Shown piece by piece: positions 44,081 through 63,518 of a stretch of 64,000 nt of DNA. Numbering within the stretch: the first letter of the stretch is position 1; every line of letters begins with the position of its first letter. The DNA is from Chondrosia reniformis. Its lineage: Eukaryota > Porifera > Demospongiae > Chondrillida > Chondrillidae. A model generated the notes under the pieces. It did not search any database. It was not told the origin of the DNA and saw only the letters and a program-made list of their open reading frames with translations. Location: positions 8,394,401 to 8,458,400 of the forward strand of contig OX359194.1 of NCBI GenBank assembly GCA_947172415.1, in the 5' to 3' direction. The position numbers and the translations under genes are program-made.

Positions 44081-44287
44081 CTAACTAAATATTACGACTG
44101 TCACATGAACAGTATCTATTATATTGTATTAAAATAGTGTAGTACTATCAGTATAATAGTCAGTGTTTGTTGTTATAAATCTATTGTTAAAGGCTAATTT
44201 AGTGAGTGTCTCGAGTTGTAGACTTTATAGCTACATCTAAAATGTGACGCCATTTTAAAGTGGGTCTAAGTAGGGGCGTTTCGTAAG
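44081..44287 (+). other. Gap between ATP synthase delta and kinase genes
   Basis: 207 bp holding the 3' UTR of the first gene and the promoter and 5' UTR of the second. No extra coding exon with a signal peptide could be found here. Confidence 0.55.
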
Positions 44288-45830
44288 ATGTCCATTGCAG
44301 AATATTTCCAAAGAAATTATTTTATTTTCCAGGTAGTCCTTGGTCTAGTGATTGGCCTTGGTTGTCTGTTCCTTCTGATAGTCTACACCGGTTTAGTGTC
44401 ACTCTGCGCTCTCTTCTTCAGGAAGAGATGCAAGTGCAGGGCGTCGGAGAACCAGCCCCAGGGGCTTGGGGATCTGAGGACGGAGGAAGACCTGCAAAGG
44501 ATCATCAGTCGGGATCATTTCAGTATCGAAATGGGGGTCATTAGCAATAAGACCGCAATCGCCTCCGAAAATTCGGTTCACAATCCTGCATTTGTAAGTC
44601 TTGAATCCAAAGAACGAAATAAAGAATTTCCAAAGTCAAATATTTGCATTTTAAAAGAATTAGGAGAGACGACATTTGGTCCCATATACCGGGGAGAAGC
44701 GACGGGATTAAGCGATGAAGAGTTATCGACCTCCGTTCTCATAAAGACGCTGAAACTGGGCTCATCGAAGAAGGTTTTGGAAGAGTTTTCGAAGGAACTG
44801 CGTATTGTAGCGGAATTCGACCATCCCAATCTGCTTCCTCTGTTGGGTGCGTGCACCAGAGACGAGCCAAAGTACCTCATCTACGAGTACCTAGAATACG
44901 GCACGTTGAAGCACTTTCTACAGTCTACTGCAGCAGCGATATCTGCAATGGAGGAAGTTCTAGACGTGACGGCTGATGATGGGCCGGGCACACCCATCAA
45001 GTGTCATCCGGTCCTTGACTATACCACCCTCCTGAGCTTTGGAGTGCAGATAGCCTCCGCAATGGACTACCTACACGAGAAGGAGTTTGTTCATCAGGAT
45101 CTTGCAACCAGAAATGTTCATGTGAGCAACAAGCATATTAGTAAGCACCTGAAAATGGAGCAGAAGAGTATTGAGAAGGTTTATGTATCCTCAACGCAAG
45201 CTCTCGCTAGTTTTAGTTCCCTATAGGCCTTTTACTATTAAGAATGTTACTGCAACATATTGCTTGTTTAGGACCACTCCCCCAGATTAGGGTCTTCCCC
45301 TTTCTCCTGTTCAGGTGAGCAACAACATGACAGTGAAGATTGCCAACTTTGGATTTAGCAGGGACATCCGGTCAGGTGACTACTATCACATGACTGAGAT
45401 CAAAGACAAGCTCCTCCCCATTCGCTGGTTGGCACCGGAGACCCTTAAGGAAGGGATATATTCTCCCGAGTCTGATGTGTGGGCCTTTGGTGTAGTCTTG
45501 TGGGAGATATTTGGGGCTGGCCAGATGCCCTATAAGTCTCTTAGCAATCCAGAGGTCATTCAGCGGATCTTGAAGTTCAAGTACATACCAAAGAGAGAAG
45601 ACTGTCCAAACGAGGTGTACAAGGTTATAGTCAGTTGTTGGCAAAGGGACCCACAAGCAAGACCCACCTTTAGTGACTTGAGGAGGGAGCTGTCCCATTT
45701 GGAAGCAAGTACTAACAAAATGAGTAGCAAGGGATGGTCTCTGCGGAAGAAACTAAGAACTGCTGTGCAGAGAACCCCAAAAACTCCAAAGTCTGTTAAA
45801 TCAGTCCAGTCACTAGATCACATTCAATAA
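44288..45830 (+). CDS. Single-pass membrane tyrosine (pseudo)kinase, ROR-like, almost no ectodomain
   Basis: Exons: 44288-45121 and 45315-45830 (449 aa). About a dozen residues precede one transmembrane helix (about 13-44), then a basic stop-transfer (RKRCKCR) and a juxtamembrane region. The kinase domain runs about 117-415. The glycine loop is ELGETTFGPIYRG, lacking the first two glycines. The beta-3 lysine (K153 in VLIKTLK) and alpha-C glutamate (E170) are present. The catalytic loop is FVHQDLATRN (HRD changed to HQD, Asp271 kept). The DFG motif is NFG (Asn289). WLAPETLKEG and DVWAFGVVLWEIF are intact. Loss of the DFG aspartate predicts weak or no catalysis. The closest pattern is ROR/MuSK/Trk-type kinases. 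Only 207 bp separate it from the preceding gene, so a missed exon for a large ectodomain is unlikely. The basic C-terminal tail has repeated TPK/SVKS segments. Confidence 0.85.
45185..45240 (+). repeat. Dispersed short repeat, partial copy C
   Basis: GTATCCTCAACGCAAGCTCT then TTTTAGTTCCCTATAGGCCT matches the left part of copy A. Located in the single intron of the kinase gene. Confidence 0.5.
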
Positions 45831-48824: not shown

Positions 48825-51800
48825 ATGGCTTTCTGGAGAGTTGGCCGATTGAGGAGGTGCTACAAGGTATATAACGACAGAAAGTAATAAATCAGTTTTC
48901 GGAAATATAAAACGCAACATTTTAGAGTTGTGTATAATTAGTATTAATATGAACGTCTGTATTTCCGAATGATAAATCAGAGAGGTCCTCCTCTCTTAAG
49001 TGACCATTTGTATGTGTCTATTGTATCGTTTAGAAGAGATGAGAGTATACAATGCGAAGAAATTTGATGAATGTTTAGTTTTTGGGATGTGTTCATCCGT
49101 TACTGTAGTAGTTTATTATTTATTGCTTTTATTGAAATAGTCAAATATGGAATTTACAAAAGTAGACTAGTTACAATTTGTAATTAGATTTATCTAAGTT
49201 ATCAATTGAGTGTTTGATCTAATTTGTTAAGTTGTTAAGTGCTGTAGTATTTTCCCATTCATTGCATGTGTAGAAGTACTTTATGTGGTAGTTTTAATCC
49301 ACAAATACTGTCCAAATCAGAGCTCGCTAGTTCTATATGTCACTTTTCCCTTTTTTCCCCATTCTTCCAGACTGTGGCCATTTTAGCATTGTTGATAATG
49401 GCAGCTTGTAATATATTGTACATTTATGACTTAATCCATCATCACGACATCCTCCAATTGAAACCTAATGGATTGGATGTACATCCGCTTCACAAAACTC
49501 GCTCCAAAGATAGTACAAGAAAAACCATTAAAATTAAAGTTTTTTCAGGAAAAGAGAAAGCTGAAATATATGTTAACGATAAGGAGGTGTGTTTTGCTGT
49601 CTTAGAGTAGTACCCACATCTTCTTTATGTGTCCACTTCACTGCACTGCCTATAACTGGTTAGGTACACGTGTCAGAGGAACAGACACGAGCCAGAGGTA
49701 TTCATGTAGCTGTTTTGAATCAGGCAACGGGAGAGGCAATGGCAGTGAGGGTCTTTGATACCTATCTGCCTGGGAATGAAGAAACGCTTGTCTCCTTTCT
49801 GGACTCTGTAATGGATGAGCGAATACTCTGTTTTGTTATAGCGGTAAGTGTGCGGGGAAGGGGAGCACCTCAGCAGTGTGGTAGTGCCACTGTACCTGGG
49901 GGGAGCACCTCAGCAGTGTGGTAGTGCCACTGTACCTGGGGGGAGCACCTCAGCAGTGTGGTAGTGCCACTGTACCTGGGGGGAGCACCTCAGCAGTGTG
50001 GTAGTGCCACTGTACCTGGGGGGGAGCACCTCAGCAGTGTGGTAGTGCCACTGTACCTGGGGGGAGCACCTCAGCAGTGTGGTAGTGCCACTGTACCTGG
50101 GGGGAGCACCTCAGCAGTGTGGTAGTGCCACTGTACCTGGGGGGAGCACCTCAGCAGTGTGGTAGTGCCACTGTACCTGGGGGGAGCACCTCAGCAGTGT
50201 GGTAGTGCCACTGTACCTGGGGGGGAGCACCTCAGCAGTGTGGTAGTGCCACTGTACCTGGGGGGAGCACCTCAGCAGTGTGGTAGTGCCACTGTACCTG
50301 GGGGGAGCACCTCAGCAGTGTGGTAGTGCCACTGTACCTGGGGGGAGCACCTCAGCAGTGTGGTAGTGCCACTGTACCTGGGGGGAGCACCTCAGCAGTG
50401 TGGTAGTGCCACTGTACCTGGGGGGAGCACCTCAGCAGTGTGGTAGTGCCACTGTACCTGGGGGGAGCACCTCACCAGTGTGGTAGTACCACTCACCGAC
50501 TGTTGGTAATATGAGCGAGGAGTACACATTTGGTGCCCATCCACTAAGCCCATTTGTAGTAGTGTATATAGGTTAGCAGTATAGTTGGCAGAATATAGCA
50601 ACTATTGCTTGCAGTTTAACACATAATTCGGATATAATGTCCTCGGAGGCTAAAATACTGAACTTTGAACTGAAAACTCCTACATTTCATGTATTGAGAG
50701 GCGCCATGCATAATGTACTACTTTGTTTGACCTTGTTAGTGTGTACACTTGTATGTTATTGCTTGTATATAGGATGAAGGAACGTTCTTTTTAAAAGATG
50801 TTGGAAGAAGTTACTTGGAAGCTTTAGGAAGCAAAGCTTCAAGTTAGTTTACCTTTTCTCCTTCCTCCAGCTGGGCCGTCCTCCAGCTGGGCCACCCTCC
50901 AGCTGGTCCACCCTCCAGCTGGTCCGCCCTCCAGCTGGGCCGCCCTCCAGCTGGTCCGCCCTCCAGCTGGGCCGCCCTCCAGCTGGTCCGCCCTCCAGCT
51001 GGGCCGCCCTCCAGCTGGGCCGCCCTCCAGCTGGGCCGCCCTCCAGCTGGGCCGCCCTCCAGCTGGTCCACCCTCCAGCTGGGCCGCCCTCCAGCTGGGC
51101 CGCCCTCCAGCTAGGCCGCCCTCCAGCTGGGCCGGCCTCCAGCTAGGCCGCCCTCCAGCTGGGCCGCCCTCCAGCTGGGCTGCCCTCCAGCTGGGACGTT
51201 CTCTGAGAGGTTGTTCAATATTTGTCCTTTAGGTACTTTGCATTGGAGAGACACTTGGGTGTTTGTGGCCGCCAAAGTTGGTTAGTACCATCACTACTGT
51301 GTCTAATGAATCACATTTAGTGTGACACTGTCTGTCAGGTGTGGTGTATGGAGAGGATGTAGGCAAGGCTATAGACCTGCAGCACTGGGGACAAAACTTG
51401 CAGATGACACTGTTGGTACCCTCCAGTGAATCCTGTAAGTGTGCATCTAAGCTTACAAACATGTTACTGGTAACCACAAGTGTTGTTGTGGCTCTGTAGC
51501 TCTGTCTTGTGCTTGGCCTGATACTGCAGAGAATGAGAAAAGAAAAACATTTTGTTCATTGTATGACGGATATGGCTCTTTGTGTGCTTGTAAGTGTTGA
51601 CATGTGCTTGTAAGTGTTGATGTGTGCTTGTAAATATTGATGTGTGTGCTTGTAAGTGTTGATGTGCATGCTTGTAAGTGTTGATGTGCGTGCTTGTAAG
51701 TGCTGATGTGTGCCTGTAAATATTGATGTGTGTGCTTGTAAGTGTTGATGTGTGCTTGTAAATATTGATGTGTGTGCTTGTAAGTGCTGATGTGTGCTTG

Positions 51801-54800
51801 TAAGTGTTGATGTGTGCTTGTAAGTGCTGATGTGTGCTTGTAAGTGTTGATGTGTGCTTGTAAGTGTTGATGTGTGTTTGAGAGTATTAAATCATGTAAA
51901 TAGCTATTGATTTGTGTATGTCGATATAGTAAGCTCAGTTGCTATTTAGTTGCTAGGAATGAGCCATCTTTCCACTGTCGCAGGTGACAATCCCCTTAGC
52001 ATTGATCTGGCACCTCCTCCAGTGAGTACAGCTTCAGTACATTGTCACACACTTTATGGTTAATGAATGAGATGTGAATGGAGTAGCACGTCTGTTAAAG
52101 TACTACTCTAATGGGATAGATTGTGTATACACATAAAATGATGCAGGAGAGGGGTTCAGCTGTATATATCTATATATGTAGTGTTTGTTTGTGTTGTAGC
52201 TGTCTCCTAGCAACATAGCTGATATCCCAGTGGTTGTCATGGCAAGCAACAGGGCCGAGTACCTGTTTAGGATGCTACAGACTTTATTAAGAACTCGAGG
52301 AGCCAACAGAGAGCTGATTGTAGTTGCAATTGATGGATATTACAAGGTTGGGTGAATTACTGCACTTGCAAGAGTGATACGTGGTTACCTATGTTACCAG
52401 CCAGGCTCATGTTGCCTAGCAACAAACATCCCTCCATCTTTTGTCATCACCTGTAGGAGCCTGAGGCCGTAGCAAAGTTGATGGGCGTGGCCTCATTTCA
52501 GCACGAACCAAAGAGTCAAAGAAATGGAAGGATTGCGCAAGTAAGTGCATTTTGTAGGAATAATGCCAATTTTGCAGTAATGTATAAAGAATGTAATTGG
52601 TAATATAAACATTCAAATTATCCTTATTGTGCAATTATATGGTGTCCAGTTACTTGTAATCTGTGCAGCATTACAAGGCCAGCCTCACAAATATGTTTGA
52701 CACCTTTCCGGTGAGTGCCTTAAATTGTTGTGTTTGGGGGAGGGCAGAGAGTATGTACAGATCCATTACCTGAATCACATTGATAGATTCACTTCCTCTG
52801 CAGTCTGCCAAATATGTCATAGTCCTGGAGGAGGACCTGGAAATATCTCCAGACTTCTTCAGGTAGGTGTGGTCACCGATCAGCCCCTCCTCCTCCTCAC
52901 CGATCAGCCCCTCCTCCTCCTCCTCACCGATCAGCTCCTCCTCCTCTCACCGATCAGCCCCTCCTCCTCCTCCTCACTCATCAGCTCCTCCTCCTCCTCC
53001 TCACTCATCAGCCCCTCCTCCTCCTCACTCATCAGCCCCTCCTCCTCCTCACCGATCAGCCCCTCCTCCTCCTCACCGATCAGCTCCTCCTCCTCCTCCT
53101 CACTGATCAGTTCCTCCTCCTCCTCCTCCTCACTCATCAGCTCCTCCTACTCAGGGGCTTGATCATATTAGTGTATTTGGGAACAGCTCCCGTGTGTCAC
53201 AGGTAATGTATTTAAATTCCTGTTTGTCTTCAGCTATTTTAGTCAGACAGTCCATTTGATGGAGGAAGACAGTAGTCTATATTGTATTTCTGCTTGGAAT
53301 GATCAGGTAGACATTTTGAGGATTTGGTCACAACCGTCATTACAAAAGTACTAATTTTAATGTATTCTCATACACCCATTTAGGGCTATAAACACACTAC
53401 ACATGATCCAGGGTTACTCTACAGGGTAGATACCATGCCAGGATTAGGATGGTGAGACCCCTCCCTCCCACCCGTCCATCCGCCCATCACCCATCCTCCT
53501 TTCCACAGGTTGCTTGGTAGAAAGTTATATAAAGAAGAACTTGAGCCAAAGTGGCCAACACCAGATAAGGTATGTGTGTCATGCTCACAGTACCGACCCC
53601 TCCCACCTGTACCGACCCCTCCCACCTGCACTGACCCCTCCCACCTGCACTGACCCCTCCCACCTGCACTGACCCCTCCCACCTGCACTGACCCCTCCCA
53701 CCAGCACTGACCCCTCCCACCAGCACTGACCCCTCCCACCCGCACTGACCCCTCCCACCTGCACTGACCCCTCCCACCCGTACCGACCCCTCCCACTCAT
53801 GTCACTGACCCCTATCCCACCCGTACTGACCCCTCCCACCCGTACTGACCCCTCCCACCTGTCTTGCTCGTAGCTGTGGGACTGGGACATGTGGATGAGA
53901 ACAGACTACATGAGGAAAGGAAGGTAGGCCCACAGTCTCAACTCCCATTCCATAGTTATAACTGCTTTAGTAATGACAAGGTTGGTTGGTAGTGAAGCAT
54001 GTTATGATTATTCTATAGAGAATGCGTAATTCCAGACATCTCCAGAACATTTCATTTTGGTAAATCGGGCACTAACATGAATCCCTACTTTCATGACCGA
54101 TACTTCAAGAATCACATTCTAAACCAAATACCTGACGTTGTCATGAAGGACACTGACAAGTAAGGAACTTGCGTTTCTACTGTACTACCAGAACAATGTC
54201 TCCTGGGATAGTGTTGTAGCGGCTCTGGAGTAGAGAGGTATTAGAGGAGGTTATTCCTATTTGCTTATAGAATGGTACAAGAGAAATACGAGATTGTTAT
54301 TGAAAGCCTCTTACAGTAAGTCCAGCGCATGAGCATGACTAATCGGAGCATCTTGAGGTGGAAGTTGAAATATCCCACCAACTATGTCGCAGTAGCAGTA
54401 GAAATGTCTGCTGTTGACACTTGGTAGATGTGTGTTCGTGATCTATAGATGCCCTGGGCAGCCAAGTAGTGCAGGTCATACCACATGGAGTGTTTGCTAA
54501 CAAATTGCTTCCTTCCAAGGAATGTATTTTGAACCGGCCAATCACCTCCTATTATGATGGGCACTAACTGATCTTCTGGTCGAGCCTCCTATCAGGACCT
54601 CTAGATAAACATGTCAACTATCTCATGTAATCATATGCTCCTATTCATACTGTCCCCAGGAAGGCGGTACCTGTAGACCATTCAGTACCCACAACCAGTG
54701 ATGCTTTCATTCCCTCTGAGGAGGTAAGTGCACACAAGCTGAGGTTAATAGCTTACTTGAACCATTTGGTGTCTCTAATCATGCTAATCAAAACCATTTC

Positions 54801-57026
54801 CTATGACTCAATTTCCTATTGATCAATACGTGTGCACACTGAACCCATAGTTATAATCAAACCACATTAAACAGCACTATGATTCCAACATGTGGATACA
54901 TGCACATGTAATTCGTTCATACCCTGTAGCTTCATACCCTGTAGCTTCATACCCTGTAGCTTCATACCCCTGTAGCTTCATACCCTGTAGCTTCATACCC
55001 TGTAGCTTCATACCCTGTAGCTTCATACCCTGTAGCTTCATACCCTGTAGCTTCATACCCCTGTAGCTTCATACCCTGTAGCTTCATACCCTGTAGCTTC
55101 ATACCCTGTAGCTTCATACCCTGTAGCTTCATACCCTGTAGCTTCATACCCTGTAGCTTCATACCCCTGTAGCTTCATACCCTGTAGCTTCATACCCTGT
55201 AGCTTCATACCCCTGTAGCTTCATACCCTGTAGCTTCATACCCTGTAGCTTCATACCCCTGTAGCTTCATACCCTGTAGCTTCATACCCTGTAGCTTCAT
55301 ACCCTGTAGCTTCATACCCCTGTAGCTTCATACCCCTGTAGCTTCATACCCCTGTAGCTTCATACCCTGTAGCTTCATACCCCTGTAGCTTCATACCCCT
55401 GTAGCTTCATACCCTGTAGCTTCATACCCCTGTAGCTTCATACCCCTGTAGCTTCATACCCCTGTAGCTTCATACCCCTGTAGCTTCATAGCCTGTAGCT
55501 TCATACCCCTGTAGCTTCATACCCCTGTAGCTTCATACCCTGTAGCTTCATACCCCTGTAGCTTCATACCCTGTAGCTTCATACCCCTGTAGCTTCATAC
55601 CCTGTAGCTTCATACCCTGTAGCTTCATACCCTGTAGCTTCATACCCCTGTAGCTTCATACCCTGTAGCTTCATACCCTGTCCATGCAGAATGTTCTACT
55701 CTTATAATGTGATGCATTTCCCAACAGGGCATCTATGTGGTGTACATAGCCAAAGAGAATGCTGCTGATTGGGAGAGCTGGATAGTTTTGGCTAGTGTGA
55801 GTATGCAACCTTCCCTCCTGATCTAGTGTGTCTCAACCATTCACCAATTGCACCAGTGGAGTACACTTACACATATTCTATTGTTCTGTAACTTTTTGTA
55901 ATTCTTCTAGGATATCAGAGCGTGACATGCCCACACAAATGCCATCCTAGCTTTGTATCACATTCCCATCACACAAACCACATGTACCTGCAACCAAATA
56001 TTCCTCAGTAGCCATAACATTGGACCGGCAGTGCCAGAAAGACAAGTCTAATAAACTGTATCCTCATCCAAAGTTCTATAGCCCCACACACCAGTCGTGA
56101 GTCTAGGAAATGTGTTTATGTGGGATCAATTCTTTTGTTTCCCAGCCTTGTATTCCTGACTTCTTTAAACACCTTTCTTCTATATGTAGTTCACATGCTT
56201 GTAATAAGGTTAAGGATTAGTATGAATAGATTGAACTAAAAACTATTTCCTAGACTCATGACTTGGGAAAACCTATTGAACTCTGTTTTGTATGCAAATA
56301 TTTCTTTCTTTTACTACTGCATCACGAATAATCTAACGCACCATTTTTCAATATGCTACATCTAATTGTTATAGAACTAGGACAATTTTGTTGTAGAATA
56401 TCAGGTATATGGTCAGTGTACATTCATGTCATTCCTTCTTACATAGCACTTCAAAATATGGGACCTGGATGCCAGGGGATTTCACAAGGTAAGATGGACA
56501 CCCGCCCCAAACAGTAGAGTTAGCACTGGTTGTAATGAGTCCCCATTTCCTTATTAGGGCCTGTGGAGGCTGTGGATTAACAATAATCAGGTGCTAATAG
56601 TTGGTTGTCCATTTTCCAAGTACTGCAGGTAGGTTCTCTGATATAGGGAGAGGACACTTGTATGTTGCCAGGCGCTCCGTTGTTGGGTGTCCATCTTGTG
56701 GTTTTAATTGCAAGCTTTCCTTGTTAACATAATATTCCTGAACTTGATTTTAAGTATCAACCATCCATTGGCATGTTAACATGTAATTATTAACAGAATG
56801 CATTATCTACAACTCTTTGTTGATATTTGCTGTTGAATTATATTTCAGTTTAGTTTTGTCTAGTAAAATAAATCAATTTTCTGACTGGAAATGGTCTTTA
56901 GAGATAAGATTTCCATTTAGATGACATTAGTAAGCGCCTGTTATGTATCTCTTCTCTCTCTTGACTGGTAGTTTTAAACCTCAAGATTTGACCCCCATTA
57001 AACTTGAAAAACCAAAGAAACAGTGA
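48825..57026 (+). CDS. POMGNT1: Protein O-linked-mannose beta-1,2-N-acetylglucosaminyltransferase 1
   Basis: Exons: 48825-48866, 49371-49586, 49664-49843, 50773-50842, 51233-51280, 51339-51434, 51500-51589, 51984-52021, 52200-52346, 52457-52540, 52669-52710, 52804-52862, 53234-53306, 53384-53451, 53509-53569, 53874-53923, 54019-54159, 54271-54315, 54660-54723, 55728-55796, 56447-56488, 56558-56628, 56972-57026 (616 aa; human 660). A type II signal anchor (about 15-33) is followed by the stem ILEI/FAM3-like domain (about 70-215; [29 protein letters not shown]). The GT13 catalytic domain starts near 260 ([19 protein letters not shown]). The metal-site segment VLEEDLEI (360-365), SAWNDQGY (Asp394, the proposed base) and LWDWDMWMR are intact. 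Family role: adding GlcNAc to O-mannose (core M1) in the Golgi, as on dystroglycan. Six or more introns contain minisatellites. Confidence 0.96.
49856..50495. repeat. 40-bp minisatellite, about 16 copies
   Basis: Unit CTGGGGGGAGCACCTCAGCA plus GTGTGGTAGTGCCACTGTAC, POMGNT1 intron. Copies differ almost only in the length of the G run (6 or 7). Confidence 0.95.
50868..51200. repeat. 16-bp minisatellite, about 20 copies
   Basis: Unit GGGCCGCCCTCCAGCT, GC-rich, POMGNT1 intron. Confidence 0.94.
51575..51885. repeat. 20-bp repeat that includes a splice donor
   Basis: Unit TGTGTGCTTGTAAGTGTTGA with 2-bp variants, about 15 copies. The first copy straddles the exon end at 51589 of POMGNT1. Confidence 0.92.
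52868..53155. repeat. TCC-rich minisatellite
   Basis: Units of the type CACCGATCAGCCCCTCCTCC with variable TCC number, POMGNT1 intron, starting 5 bases after a donor. Confidence 0.9.
53590..53865. repeat. 19-bp minisatellite, about 14 copies
   Basis: Unit CCACCTGCACTGACCCCTC, POMGNT1 intron ending 8 bases before the exon at 53874. Confidence 0.92.
54925..55682. repeat. 15/16-bp minisatellite, about 48 copies
   Basis: Unit GTAGCTTCATACCCT or with one extra C, in an irregular mixture, filling most of a POMGNT1 intron. Confidence 0.95.
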
Positions 57027-57338: not shown

Positions 57339-60300
57339 ATGCTAGCAGAAGGATTAATGACCGTCTTAAGAAGCCGTCGATCACTAAAAGTAAATTCTTG
57401 CATCCATGTACTGTTTTGTCTAGTAAGTTTGGCTCTTTAAAGCAATCAATATATTGTTCCGCCCTCCTCAGGTCCTCCAAGTACTTGTTATCGTATTGAT
57501 GGTTCTAGTGTTTCTAAATTTGAACTCAATTAGAGATGTACAAACGTACGAGATAGTCCAAAACACACAATTATCGCAAGTAACTCCTATTATAATACCA
57601 GAGGAGGGGAAAAAGTTGGTTGCTGGCAGAAAACCAGCTTCTATCCTTAAGAACTTGTCAACTGTCGCCAGCAGTGTAAACGAAGAGGACAGTAGCAGTA
57701 AAGACGAATTGGAGGAATACGATGATACGTCGTTGGTAGCTGTTCCGACGGTCAAGTTAAAAATTAAGATTGTTTCTGGAAAGTCTATTGCCGCCCTTTA
57801 CGTTGGCGGACAACTGGTGAGTATTGGATTCGGTTGGCTGTTAATCATTGTTTCGAAATAAAGCCACCTTGAAGGACAATTGTATATGTTAAGACTATTT
57901 CATTCATTATCGCCTTCAGAGGTAAAAGTGTACATTCGGATAATTAAATTGTCCGTTTCGCTTGCAAATTATGTTGTCAACTTGTATGTATATTGTACAT
58001 ACCTTTAGGTAAAGTCGAGCACAGAAGCTGGAAAAGAGCGCGGTATGCATGCCTACGTTCTCAATCAAACCAATGTAAGTCATATTACATGGATCAAATA
58101 TGCTATCAACTGCTCAAATTGTTTAAAAATTCCCATTATGCATTATACAACATGAATCCGTCCATCGTTCATCCACCCCCATTCATCCATTAATCCCTCT
58201 CTTATGTCCTTGTATGCAGGGCCAGTTAACCCAGTATGGGATATTTGATACGTACATTCGAGGCAGGGAGAAGGACTTGGCTGCCTTTCTAGACGTGGTT
58301 CCAAAAGGCCGTATCGTCTGTGTAGCTATAAAGGTACAGTCTGGTTTAGAAACTGCTTACTGAGTGTCGTAGCCCCCGAGGGAGATGGTACAACCTAAGT
58401 GATGACGAGGTTGGCCTCTAGCTCTTTGAAACGAAATTGAAATTAGTGCAATGGAATAAATCACAGTGTACTGTAATGTGTGCTAAACAATATCTGCATG
58501 CTTCTTAATAAAATAATTCAACAACATCCTACTCCCCATGTGGGCTCTGGGGTAGTACCTCTACCATGCCCCCTGACCACACCCCTCTACCATGTCCCCT
58601 GACCACGCCCCCTCTACCATGCCTCCTGACCACGCCCCCTCTACCATGTCCCCTGACCACGCCCCCTCTACCATGTCCCCTGACCACGCCCCCTCTACCA
58701 TGTCCCCTGACCACGCCCCCTATGCCATGTCCCCTGACCACACCCCTCTACCATGTCCCCTGACCACACCACTTCTTTCTTGTGTTGCTGTAGGATGAAG
58801 CCACATTCTACTTGAAGGAAGTTGGTAGAAAGGCTTTAGCTAGTGTTGGAAGCAAATTAGCGGGTAATTACAAGTGGAGTTTTCAATATACCTGGCTACT
58901 GAAAATGGGCTCCAGGCATAATACACACCTCTGTGTTACTTCTGATTGTATTGTTATCATCCAATGTTCTTTGATCTTCTTTGCACTCAGAGACACTGCA
59001 GTGGAGGGACGTATATACTTTAATTACTCAGAAAGGAGGTCAGTCATTCCTCACCCCTCCCCCCTGGGATCACATCCTATTCCTCATTCCTCCCCCCCGG
59101 GATCACATCCTATTCCTCACCCCTCCCCCCGGGATCACATCCTATTCCTCATTCCTCCCCCCGGGATCACATCCTATTCCTCACCCCTCCCCCCGGGATC
59201 ACATCCTATTCCTCACCCCTCCCCCCGGGATCATAGTGCTGTACTTGGGTGTGTTTAGGTTTTCAAGAGATGTGCATAATGAGTTCAGTAATATTGTCAC
59301 CTGCCCACAAGTACATACTATAATATACTGAAATGGGCAGAGAATGTCTCACTTTGTTGTTAAACACACTGCAACCTAAAATCACAACTTGAATGAATGC
59401 TATGGCAACCACAAGTGCAAATAGCATCTGTTAACCAATTGTAATTCAGTGCACCAACTAATTGCTGACTTGCTAGAAAGAAGTCCTCATTGAGAAGCTA
59501 TTTCTCATTCAAATTGTTGTTTATTCAAATACCTCTACTGACCCCGACCTTCCTACTCTTCTAATTAGAGGGGTTATCTCTGGTTATGGACTTGTAGCGT
59601 TACCATGGGTACCAACTTTCCACTTGTTTGTTCTGTACAAGTTCTCTGTTACATAATCTGTAAAGTTTTGTTAGACAAAGTGTCTCTATTGTAAGACCAC
59701 TCCTTTGAATGATGTTATAAGATGGATTTAGGCCCTGGCCAATTATGCATACCTTTGAGCATAATTGATATTGAAAACATAGAGCTCAATAGACTACATG
59801 CAATTTTGAATGATAACACTTTCAGTCATATTTTATAACTCCATTTACATTAAATACAGCCTATTAACAATTTATGTATTCCGGTGATGAGGTTAAAGGT
59901 TAGTTAGGTGACTTGACATGAGCGTACCTTTTAAGCATAATCGAGTTTTTGCAGGGTTTTAGAAAAGTATAATTGCAGAAATTAAAGCATAATTAGCAAA
60001 GCCTTAGCTATATAGCATCCTTGGTCACATGATAGTCACATGATCAGCCTTAATTTTGTTCCTTCTCTTTAGTGGGTCTGATTGATGAAGAGAAAGAGGC
60101 AGCTCCTGACGTGTACTCTTGGGCCTCAAACCTTGCCCTGTCTGTGGCATTTGAGTCTTCCCATATAAGTCAGCATTGCATTGTGTTTTATTACTTCTAC
60201 TAGTCATCTGATTGGCTACTTTGTTTCTATAGTTACTGAAATTTGTTCATGGGCCAGGAAGAAGAAATTCAGGAAGAGAACATCCTTTTGTGCTTCACAT

Positions 60301-63300
60301 GATGGTTATCCATTACTTTGTAAATGTAAGCAACTAGTATACATCTTTACAAGTTTGGAAATTATTCCATGTTAACTTTATCATCTCGATATGTACCTCC
60401 CTCTCCCTCTCCCTCTCCCTCTCCCTCTCCCTCTCCCTCTCCCTCTCCCTCTCCCTCTCCCTCTCCCTCTCCCTCTCCCTCTCCCTCTCCCTCTCCCTCT
60501 CCCTCTCCCTCTCCCTCTCCCTCCCCCTCTCCCTCCCCCTCTCCCTCCCCCTCACCCTCTCCCTCTCCCTCTCCCTCTCCCTCTCCCTCTCCCTCTCCCT
60601 CTCCCTCTCCCTTTTCCTCCTTTCCTCTCCTTAAACTACGTACATTGCCAGGTAACAGTCGTATTGTCACAGATGTGGAACCTCCACAGGTGAGCCGACA
60701 CTGTGTGGCATTGTGTGTATCATGACATCTACAGCTATTTGGCTATATATTATACAGCTATCATAAGCTATTTGGACAGTAATTAGTCATATCCCTGCTA
60801 CTTATTCCTTTATCCTTTACAGATCACTCCAAACAACATGGCCGACGTGCCTGTGGTGTTAATAGCCAGGGACCAGCCAGGCTACCTTGTGTCACAGCTG
60901 CACTCGTTAACCAATGCTGATGGAGCCATTAGGTCCAACATTGTAGTATCCTTCTCCAAGTATGCAAAGGTACAGTCAAATGATGTTCGCAAGCGACCCT
61001 TCTTCTATGTCATGTATTCTTCTACTTTAGGACCCACTGACACTTGCAGACATATTTGGAGTAAAGACAATACAGAATAATATCAGTGGAGGTGAATCTG
61101 TTATGTCTGATGTGAGTCGTATGCCTCTGTCTTGTGTCTGTCACATGACTGTCACATGACTGTCACATGTCTACCTTCTCTCATGTGCACAGCACATAAG
61201 AATGTCACTGGATAAGCTATTTGGACAGTTTCCCACGGCAGAATATGCAGTTGTTATAGACGGAGACCTTAAAATATCTACAGATATATTTAGGTAGGCA
61301 GATCACATTACATGACAACAACAAGGATGCTCATATTGTCACAGATGGTTACTTTATTAAAAATAAGGGTACTGTAAGATCTAAAGCCAGTCAGGCATTT
61401 ATCACCATGGTTACATGCTGTTAATGATACTCCTATGTTAATGACTGTAGCTATTTCAGTCAAACACTACCGCTGCTGAGATCGGACGATACACTTTATT
61501 GTGTGTCAGCGTGGAACAGCCATGTGAGCTCTGCTGCAGTGAACATTACCTTAAAGGATTTGATATGTCCTGCATTCTTCCTGTAATTCACAGGGTTTTA
61601 TAAACTCGTCCTTTGACCCCTCCCTGGTGTACCGCTATGAGACACCGCCAGGTCTGGCATGGTAAGTCACAGCAGACAACAGACGTTTGCTGGTCCACAC
61701 TTAATGTCCGTCTTGTACAGGATGATAAAGAGAAGTTTCTTTACGGAAGTGTTGAAGTCAAACTGGCCTCGACTAGATATGAAGGTCAGTACCCTGCATG
61801 AGTGTGTGGTTAATCCTCACAAATATCACCATGGAAACCTGATGGAAGGTAATTGTATATAATATTATGTTCAATTTCTATTAGCTCTTTGATTGGTCAG
61901 TTTGGATGGGCAAGTCAGGGCTTGCAAATGGAAGGTAACTTTATCTTTTTATAGTCACACTTTCCCTCTCCCTCTCCCTCTCCCCCTCCCCTTCTCTCAC
62001 TCTCCCTCTCCCTCTCCCTCTCCCTCTCCCTCTCCCTCTCCCTCTCCCTCTCCCTCTCCCTCCCCCTCTCCCTCTCCCTGGTAGGGAGTGTATTGTTCCT
62101 GATGTTTCAAGAGTGGCACCATTCGACTCTCCCCACTTGCACCTCTATATGGAGTACCCTAAGTCATTGTTTCAAAAGCATACCATTACTAGACAGTCTG
62201 GACTAGTCTTACAAGACTTAGACAAGTATGCTTTTCAGATGATTGTGCAACATGGTCCAGCCATTGCATCATCCACCAATTACTTTATGTGGCTTTTTGT
62301 CTTTGTTATTATAGACTGGCCTCAAAGGACTATGACGAATATGTCAAGTATCTCCTCCTGTAAGTACTAGAATGATCCATCCTGTAATAACCTAGTAGAG
62401 ATAAGTATGTATACGTACATGAAAAATCTAAGATACCATTTTCCTACAATCCTCTGAAACACATGGACACTCAATTGACTCGGGTGTTCGTAACAGTGGT
62501 TCTGTGTTTCCTATTGTGTTCAGTGGCTACCAATCATTTTGTAGAGTTCCTCGTCTCCTTGTTTTGCTTCCTTTGATGTTTTGTCTTCTCTGGTAATTGT
62601 AGACATTCTGAGTTGCTGGATCACTCCTTGCTACCAACAGACTTCAACTTTGTCCCTTCAACAAAGGTAAATAGCGTACAGTGTTACCATATAAATATGT
62701 ATGAAATGCACTTAGCCATATTTGGTGAAGAACTGCTTCTGATGCAAACAGTCATTGTTACGTTTGATTACTTTATCTTCTTTTTGTGTAAATATTAATT
62801 ATTTTTAATTGTACTATTACACTATTGCATTCTGACAGTGTTTTTCTCACTGTACGTATATGTAGGAAAAGATTTATTCCTTTTTCATTGGAGAAGATAG
62901 TGAAGACAGCTTTACAAATTGGATAGCTATTGCAAAGGTACATACAGTATTCACAGTAAGAAAACTTGTGATCAATCCTATATGTTTCCTCGGTATAGAT
63001 CCTAAAGTTGTGGTATTTGGATCCGAGAGGCCATCACAAGGTAACGTGAAAGTGCAGCATTTTATAGGTGCAGCGTATGGAAATTGTTTATTTACTGTTG
63101 TAAATATCCATTTCAATGAATCATTTTTTGTACATACTGTATATATAACTATGAATAATGTTGGGCAATCATGTGTGATGTTGGGCAATCCTGTGTGATG
63201 TTGGGTAATCCTGTGTGATGTTGGGCAATCATGTGTGATGTTGGGCAATCCTGTGTGATGTTGGGTAATCCTGTGTGATGTTGGGCAATCCTGTGTGATG

Positions 63301-63518
63301 TTGGGCAATCCTGTGTGATGTTGAATAATGTTTTATGATAGGGTGTGTGGAGGTTTAAAAGGAAAGGAAACCACATTTTATGTGTCAAATGTCCTTCACA
63401 CTTCTGCAAGTAAGTAAATACACTGTAGTTTTGGTATGTGGTAACTTGTGTGCTCCTCCTACACAGATACAAGCCAAAGGATGTAGAACCGATCAGACTT
63501 TGGCATGGAAGCTCCTGA
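57339..63518 (+). CDS. Divergent POMGNT1 paralogue, probably inactive glycosyltransferase
   Basis: Exons: 57339-57389, 57472-57816, 58009-58074, 58220-58333, 58794-58863, 58991-59038, 60073-60168, 60233-60325, 60652-60689, 60823-60969, 61031-61111, 61193-61293, 61451-61523, 61594-61661, 61721-61784, 61885-61934, 62085-62225, 62315-62359, 62603-62666, 62866-62937, 62999-63040, 63342-63409, 63467-63518 (662 aa). Exon sizes mirror the neighbour (48, 96, 38, 147, 73, 68, 50, 141, 45, 64, 42), so it arose by tandem duplication. A signal anchor (about 18-33) and the stem ILEI/FAM3 domain are kept, with DEATFYLKEVGRKAL. The GT13-like domain keeps the fold pattern, but the metal-site EED is IDGD (405-408), SAWNDQG is SAWNSHG (Ser440) and DWDMWMR is DWSVWMG. 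Catalysis is therefore doubtful; a lectin, chaperone or partner role is inference. Start chosen by alignment of MTVLRSRRSLK with the neighbour's first exon; Met7 is an alternative start. Confidence 0.9.
58553..58770. repeat. 27-bp minisatellite, about 8 copies
   Basis: Unit CCATGTCCCCTGACCACGCC plus CCCTCTA, intron of the POMGNT1 paralogue, ending shortly before an acceptor. Confidence 0.93.
59040..59232. repeat. 32-bp minisatellite, about 6 copies
   Basis: Unit CCTATTCCTCACCCCTCCCC plus CCGGGATCACAT, beginning 2 bases after the donor at 59038. Confidence 0.93.
60398..60618. repeat. (CCCTCT)n microsatellite
   Basis: About 36 hexamer units with a few C-rich interruptions near 60530, ending 33 bases before an acceptor of the POMGNT1 paralogue. 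Confidence 0.96.
61964..62080. repeat. (TCCCTC)n microsatellite at an acceptor
   Basis: Hexamer array that runs up to the TGGTAG acceptor of the exon at 62085 and forms its polypyrimidine tract. Confidence 0.95.
62418..62449 (-). repeat. Dispersed short repeat, partial copy D
   Basis: CATGAAAAATCTAAGATACC plus ATTTTCCTAC is the reverse complement of the end of copy A without mismatch. Located in an intron of the POMGNT1 paralogue. Confidence 0.55.
63160..63325. repeat. 20-bp minisatellite, about 8 copies
   Basis: Unit GTGTGATGTTGGGCAATCCT, last-but-one intron of the POMGNT1 paralogue. Confidence 0.93.

Follow-up and report, generated by a model that had tools for sequence, protein, structure and literature searches.

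Organization and origin of the gene pair

Gene B is a paralogue of POMGNT1 on the forward strand at positions 57339..63518 of the window, the whole 64,000-nucleotide stretch of Chondrosia reniformis DNA analyzed here. It was placed by its splice sites, its frame and its match to human POMGnT1 (5ggf), and it has 23 coding exons that encode 673 aa. From the ATG at 57339 to the TGA at 63518, the 673 codons form a single open frame with no internal stop, and all 22 introns have GT-AG borders, which bears out the statement of a preliminary description that the 23-exon frame is intact. Gene A, the POMGNT1 orthologue, is located directly upstream on the same strand (49371..57026), with 22 coding exons mapped and the start exon left out of the model.

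Gene A matches human POMGnT1 with 661.7 bits. The match of gene B has 405.4 bits (E=4.2e-120) and covers residues 123-668 with few gaps. The two sponge proteins are identical at 222 of 599 aligned residues (37%). Nineteen of the 21 mapped introns of gene A are found in gene B at the identical alignment column and phase, and one further intron is one column off in gene B with equal phase, so that 20 of 21 are common in total. Intron 10 of gene A (52711-52803), between MFDTFP and SAKYV, is specific to gene A, and gene B has a fused exon (61193-61293) at this point. Intron 3 of gene B (58075-58219), which follows NQTN in the stem, is without a counterpart in gene A. These two introns represent one gain or loss on each side. 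Intron 1 of gene B has no counterpart for comparison because the start exon of gene A is outside the mapped model. Gene B shows homology to the POMGNT1 family over its full length, including the stem and the GT13 domain with both Pfam domains over cut-off, as well as common intron positions. Gene B is a tandem paralogue of the neighbouring POMGNT1. The duplication of the adjoining gene, proposed earlier, is confirmed by the 37% identity and the 20 of 21 common introns.

The searched genome comprises 117,379,552 bases in 15 contigs, with the window on contig C6. Searches with gene A, gene B and the GNT-I profile gave at least 20, at least 21 and at least 8 matches, respectively, and among the matches listed from these searches, all were in gene A, gene B or one MGAT1-like locus on contig C11. 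Scans of viral sequences and of GTDB, each with two peptide patterns only, gave 175 and 100 pattern matches, respectively, none of which was a relative; for an animal gene, this is not surprising. No match was obtained with a DNA pattern guessed for the DWSVWM motif.

The introns of genes A and B carry different tandem arrays (49860-50493, 50864-51195, 53595-53861, 54916-55681 and 60397-60612), with units of 40, 16, 19, 15 and 6 bases (19 rows, in which overlapping rows represent the same array). Upstream of the pair, at 44270-45830, two open stretches match Pfam at a profile of the tyrosine-kinase type (PK_Tyr_Ser-Thr), and a hydrophobic stretch in the translation suggests a putative receptor kinase.

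Domain layout of gene B

The coordinates of all gene B features given here refer to the forward strand. A candidate signal-anchor transmembrane segment at about aa 24-45 (57408..57522) crosses intron 1, and the best 19-residue mean hydropathy, 3.3, is found at aa 24. The stalk, aa 48-120 (57529..57747), is Ser/Thr-rich with a net charge of -6 and is longer than that of gene A. It is followed by the stem, a FAM3/ILEI-type domain at aa 123-266 (57754..60143), which matches the ILEI profile at positions 1-89 of 90 with 69.7 bits. The aligned part of the GT13 GT-A N-lobe runs from aa 315 to 525 (60678..62121), and the GNT-I match has 90.4 bits over aa 393-584. The donor lid loop (human 503-514) corresponds to 62128..62163, and the C-lobe occupies about aa 564-672 (62325..63512), in which human W600 and R605 are represented by W625 and R630, both kept. 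Judging from the hydrophobic N-terminal segment and the acidic stalk, the product is predicted to be a type II membrane protein that resides in the secretory pathway, faces the lumen and has a POMGnT1-like plan of anchor, stalk, FAM3-type stem, GT13 domain and C-lobe.

Gene B has four N-glycosylation sequons (residues 89, 162, 384 and 456): the stalk has one, the stem has one, which is located at the conserved VLNQ, and the GT domain has two. None is present in the mapped gene A or the aligned human chain.

Catalytic and metal-site residues

Residue numbers were set by reference to the printed alignments, in which a single offset puts GnT-I E211-D212-D213 on EDD and W290-D291 on WDDWM. In GnT-I, D213 alone is reported to ligate Mn directly, with D291 as the likely general base, and the same source mentions a conserved Arg without a residue number (PMC7014118). 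For MGAT1, E211 and W290 are reported to contact GlcNAc, and Asp291 is described as the base (PMC7948508). The human POMGnT1 equivalents of GnT-I E211-D212-D213, W290 and D291 are E393-E394-D395, W475 and D476, the last of which is part of DWDMWM. Human R311 (GnT-I R117) is presumably the phosphate-binding Arg, and D338 (GnT-I D144) is presumably a uracil contact.

In gene B, D417-G418-D419 (61259..61267) stands for E393-E394-D395. The EED/EDD form of the motif is missing, and the last Asp, D419, which is equivalent to human D395 and to the Mn ligand D213 of GnT-I, is kept. According to the alignment, the catalytic base D476 (GnT-I D291) is replaced by S501 (61897..61899), R311 by Q336 (60874..60876), D338 by S363 (60955..60957), and the Asp of SAWNDQG (human D427, GnT-I D245) by S451 (61518..61520). 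The equivalents of human H371, W475 (W500), W600 and R605 are kept. Acids at the metal and base positions had been named in advance as evidence against a loss of catalysis; the metal acid is present (D419), while for the base no substitute acid is seen in the aligned sequences. D499, which is also Asp in human POMGnT1 and gene A, is the sole acid that gene B has within the 15 columns surrounding S501. The base is kept in gene A (DWDMWM) and in the sponge's own MGAT1 (WDDWM), and the equivalents of R311, EED, D395, W475 and D476 are intact in gene A.

The preliminary description had named some of these changes. Its replacement of DWDMWM by DWSVWM agrees with the alignment, which places Ser501 at the base position. 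The change of the EED motif is real, but it aligns as DGD and not as IDGD, the I being outside the motif, and the ligand Asp is retained. The change of SAWND to SAWNS also stands, but this Asp had been taken for the catalytic base, which is D476 in DWDMWM, and the Ser numbered 440 is residue 451 in the gene B model. The list of lost residues was incomplete, as R311, D338 and the lid are also lost. The overall claim of a maintained, probably catalytically dead paralogue is supported, on partly other residues than those named.

These replacements suggest that gene B most likely no longer transfers GlcNAc. It may still bind a metal or a nucleotide because the equivalent of the Mn-ligand Asp is kept. 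A different proposal is that gene B is still an enzyme with an altered donor, acceptor or mechanism, in which DGD acts as an ordinary DxD motif for the metal and the role of the base has passed to another residue. The retention of the D395, H371, W475, W600 and R605 equivalents is consistent with this. However, the base, R311, D338 and the lid are all changed, and the only acid near S501 is the D499 that human POMGnT1 and gene A have as well, which makes an altered enzyme improbable.

Pattern of loss across domains

Domain limits were taken from the POMGNT1 figure legend of PMC7014118. At the sites common to human POMGnT1 and gene A, retention in gene B is 35/68 for the stem, 81/149 for the N-lobe, 0/7 for the lid, 3/8 for the linker and 31/51 for the C-lobe. 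Retention in the lid differs from that in the N-lobe (Fisher p = 0.005), and retention in the C-lobe does not (p = 0.51). Divided by residue class, the retained sites are 63/111 hydrophobic, 16/38 acidic, 19/39 basic and 6/6 cysteine. Gene B keeps 48 of the 77 aligned sites that are identical in human POMGnT1, gene A and rabbit GnT-I; among these 77, it has lost 13 of 21 charged residues versus 16 of the 56 remaining ones (Fisher p = 0.009, with the grouping picked after the list was seen). The Pfam GNT-I score declines from 190.4 bits in gene A to 90.4 in gene B.

Gene B has 133 unique changes overall, compared with 51 in gene A (p about 1e-9), and the difference is significant in the stem and the N-lobe. 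In the C-lobe, gene B is not detectably faster than gene A (20 vs 15 unique changes, p = 0.50). This last result is consistent with a second proposal, in which gene B is a dedicated partner of active POMGNT1 and, through its transferase-like lumenal domain, either helps it to fold, as COSMC does for C1GALT1, or inhibits it, as GnT1IP/MGAT4D does for MGAT1. Its tandem position and the domain plan it shares with gene A point in the same direction. Against this, human POMGnT1, to our knowledge, needs no such paralogue. COSMC and GnT1IP offer precedents as transferase homologues reported to have a regulatory job (PMC4572887, PMC9775496). On balance, a dedicated partner is a possibility of some weight, though an unlikely one.

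Stem and its GlcNAc-binding triad

In human POMGnT1, R129, D179 and R207 are reported to be directly involved in beta-GlcNAc binding (PMC9802357). The same source reports that Fam3L2, which keeps the triad, bound GlcNAc, whereas Fam3L1, in which two of the three residues are missing, did not. All three residues are kept in gene B as R154, D204 and R232. Given that 35 of 68 stem sites are kept, the chance of retaining all three is p = 0.13, and retention of the triad weakly favours a lectin function of the predicted stem.

The stem of gene B fits the FAM3/ILEI domain by a near full-length profile match together with the triad, and at the profile level it is as good as that of gene A (Pfam ILEI, 69.7 and 69.5 bits for genes B and A, respectively). 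Its identity to the human stem is 28.7%, versus 42.9% for gene A, and it has 33 unique changes versus 11. The scores of gene B versus gene A are 80.5 and 125.9 bits against the human POMGnT1 stem, 27.8 and 63.7 against FAM3B, 21.7 and 44.7 against FAM3C, and 36.7 and 42.0 against FAM3A. An exon-by-exon search of the genome with the ILEI profile reported only gene A and not gene B.

Age and selection

The silent sites between genes A and B are saturated, with a pS of 0.77 and identity at 22 of 74 four-fold sites against 0.287 by chance; therefore, the duplication is old. The pairwise dS is likewise saturated, and no omega is given. Neutral drift was simulated with 400 runs per setting. At 0.05 substitutions per site, the probability of no stop was 0.015, and at 0.5 per site about 23 stops were obtained. 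From the saturated silent sites and the absence of stops, it can be concluded that selection must have maintained gene B as a protein through most of its history, with a very recent release possible. Decay as a pseudogene was rejected on the basis of the intact frame and splice sites, the absence of stops and the neutral simulation, in agreement with the earlier view that gene B is not a decaying pseudogene (no stop in 673 codons, 22 intact introns).

Branch lengths are 1.21 for gene B, 0.37 for gene A and 0.62 for human POMGnT1. The roughly threefold faster rate of gene B relative to gene A is what a gene that is now dying, with its frame not yet broken, would show. However, its unbroken codons and introns, the low probability of a stop-free frame even at 0.05 neutral substitutions per site and the retention of all six common cysteines argue against such a fate, although a more recent release from selection would agree with the intact frame. 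A dying gene is thus very improbable.

In a tree rooted on GnT-I and the sponge MGAT1, all three topologies are in the 95% set, and the best joins human POMGnT1 with gene B (AU 0.79). Gene B shares 60 states with gene A and 51 with human POMGnT1 (p = 0.45); in the stem alone, the counts are 26 and 11 (p = 0.02). Taken together, the tree and the state counts are compatible with a duplication before as well as after the divergence of sponges and humans.

Proposed role of gene B

Besides catalysis, human POMGnT1 is reported to bind carbohydrate through its stem and to act as a scaffold for fukutin (PMC8478517, PMC9802357). The reading preferred here, held at a little below even confidence, is that gene B is a pseudo-transferase without GlcNAc transfer that acts through its lectin stem, alone or in complex with active POMGNT1. 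With Ser at the base position, the losses of R311 and D338 and a rewritten lid, gene B would not transfer GlcNAc. Its stem would bind the GlcNAc-beta-1,2-mannose product, which is the non-catalytic half of the job of POMGnT1. In this way, gene B, by itself or complexed with the POMGNT1 encoded by gene A, could hold partner enzymes or O-mannosylated substrates, and its stem lectin could read or hold the O-mannose glycans made by gene A. This stem-lectin role is favoured, and a chaperone or inhibitor partnership with gene A is its main rival.

A more specific version holds that the two jobs of POMGnT1 were divided between the tandem genes in an old split, with gene A as the writer and gene B, catalytically dead, dedicated to reading GlcNAc-beta-1,2-mannose. 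Such a division is doubtful at present. If it were true, FAMP-1 of nematodes would be either a parallel to it or a related example. A natural copy that lacks catalysis and has the stem would, if confirmed, be a ready-made separation-of-function protein, and gene B would then give a clue to how FAM3-type domains became able to function independently of an enzyme.

An exon-wise profile search of the genome gave five PMT matches at two loci and two GT49 matches at one locus. The first step of the O-mannose pathway may be present in the sponge because PMT-family matches occur at two loci. The same type of search gave no match for dystroglycan (PF05454), for which the control matches were also zero, or for LicD (PF04991), and absence is not implied in either case.

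Comparison with known systems

Gene B resembles POMGnT1 (GT13, protein O-mannose beta-1,2-GlcNAc transferase; PDB 5GGF) in its domain order, the aligned residues 123-668, all six cysteines common to human POMGnT1 and gene A, and the stem triad. In contrast, its catalytic base, R311, D338, E394 and lid are changed, it has four sequons, and its stalk is longer and acidic compared with that of gene A. COSMC belongs to a different family from POMGnT1 and gene B. COSMC (C1GALT1C1) is homologous to glycosyltransferases and is reported to chaperone an active one (C1GALT1), a role that gene B may have in common with it (PMC4572887, PMC9775496). GnT1IP/MGAT4D is a transferase homologue reported to inhibit MGAT1 specifically via its lumenal domain (PMC4572887, PMC9775496). 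Unlike gene B, it is homologous to family 54 transferases rather than being a paralogue of its target within GT13 (PMC4572887).

POMGnT1 is reported from every group considered, including Porifera, and the accessible part of that source mentions no duplicate (PMC8478517). In the accessible parts of the literature on POMGNT1 paralogues and POMGNT1 evolution in sponges, no description of the gene B paralogue was found. FAMP-1 of C. elegans and the nematode proteins related to it are similar to gene B in that a FAM3-like GlcNAc-binding domain is followed by a diverged POMGnT1-like domain, and a gene similar to FAMP-1 is reported in amphioxus (PMC9802357). The authors of that work leave open whether FAMP-1 is active as a transferase (PMC9802357). 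By its published description, on which this comparison is based, FAMP-1 contains two FAM3-like domains and is minimally similar to the catalytic domain (PMC9802357), whereas gene B combines a single stem domain with a complete GT13 domain and adjoins an active-looking copy. Of the systems compared here, FAMP-1 comes closest to the arrangement of gene B.
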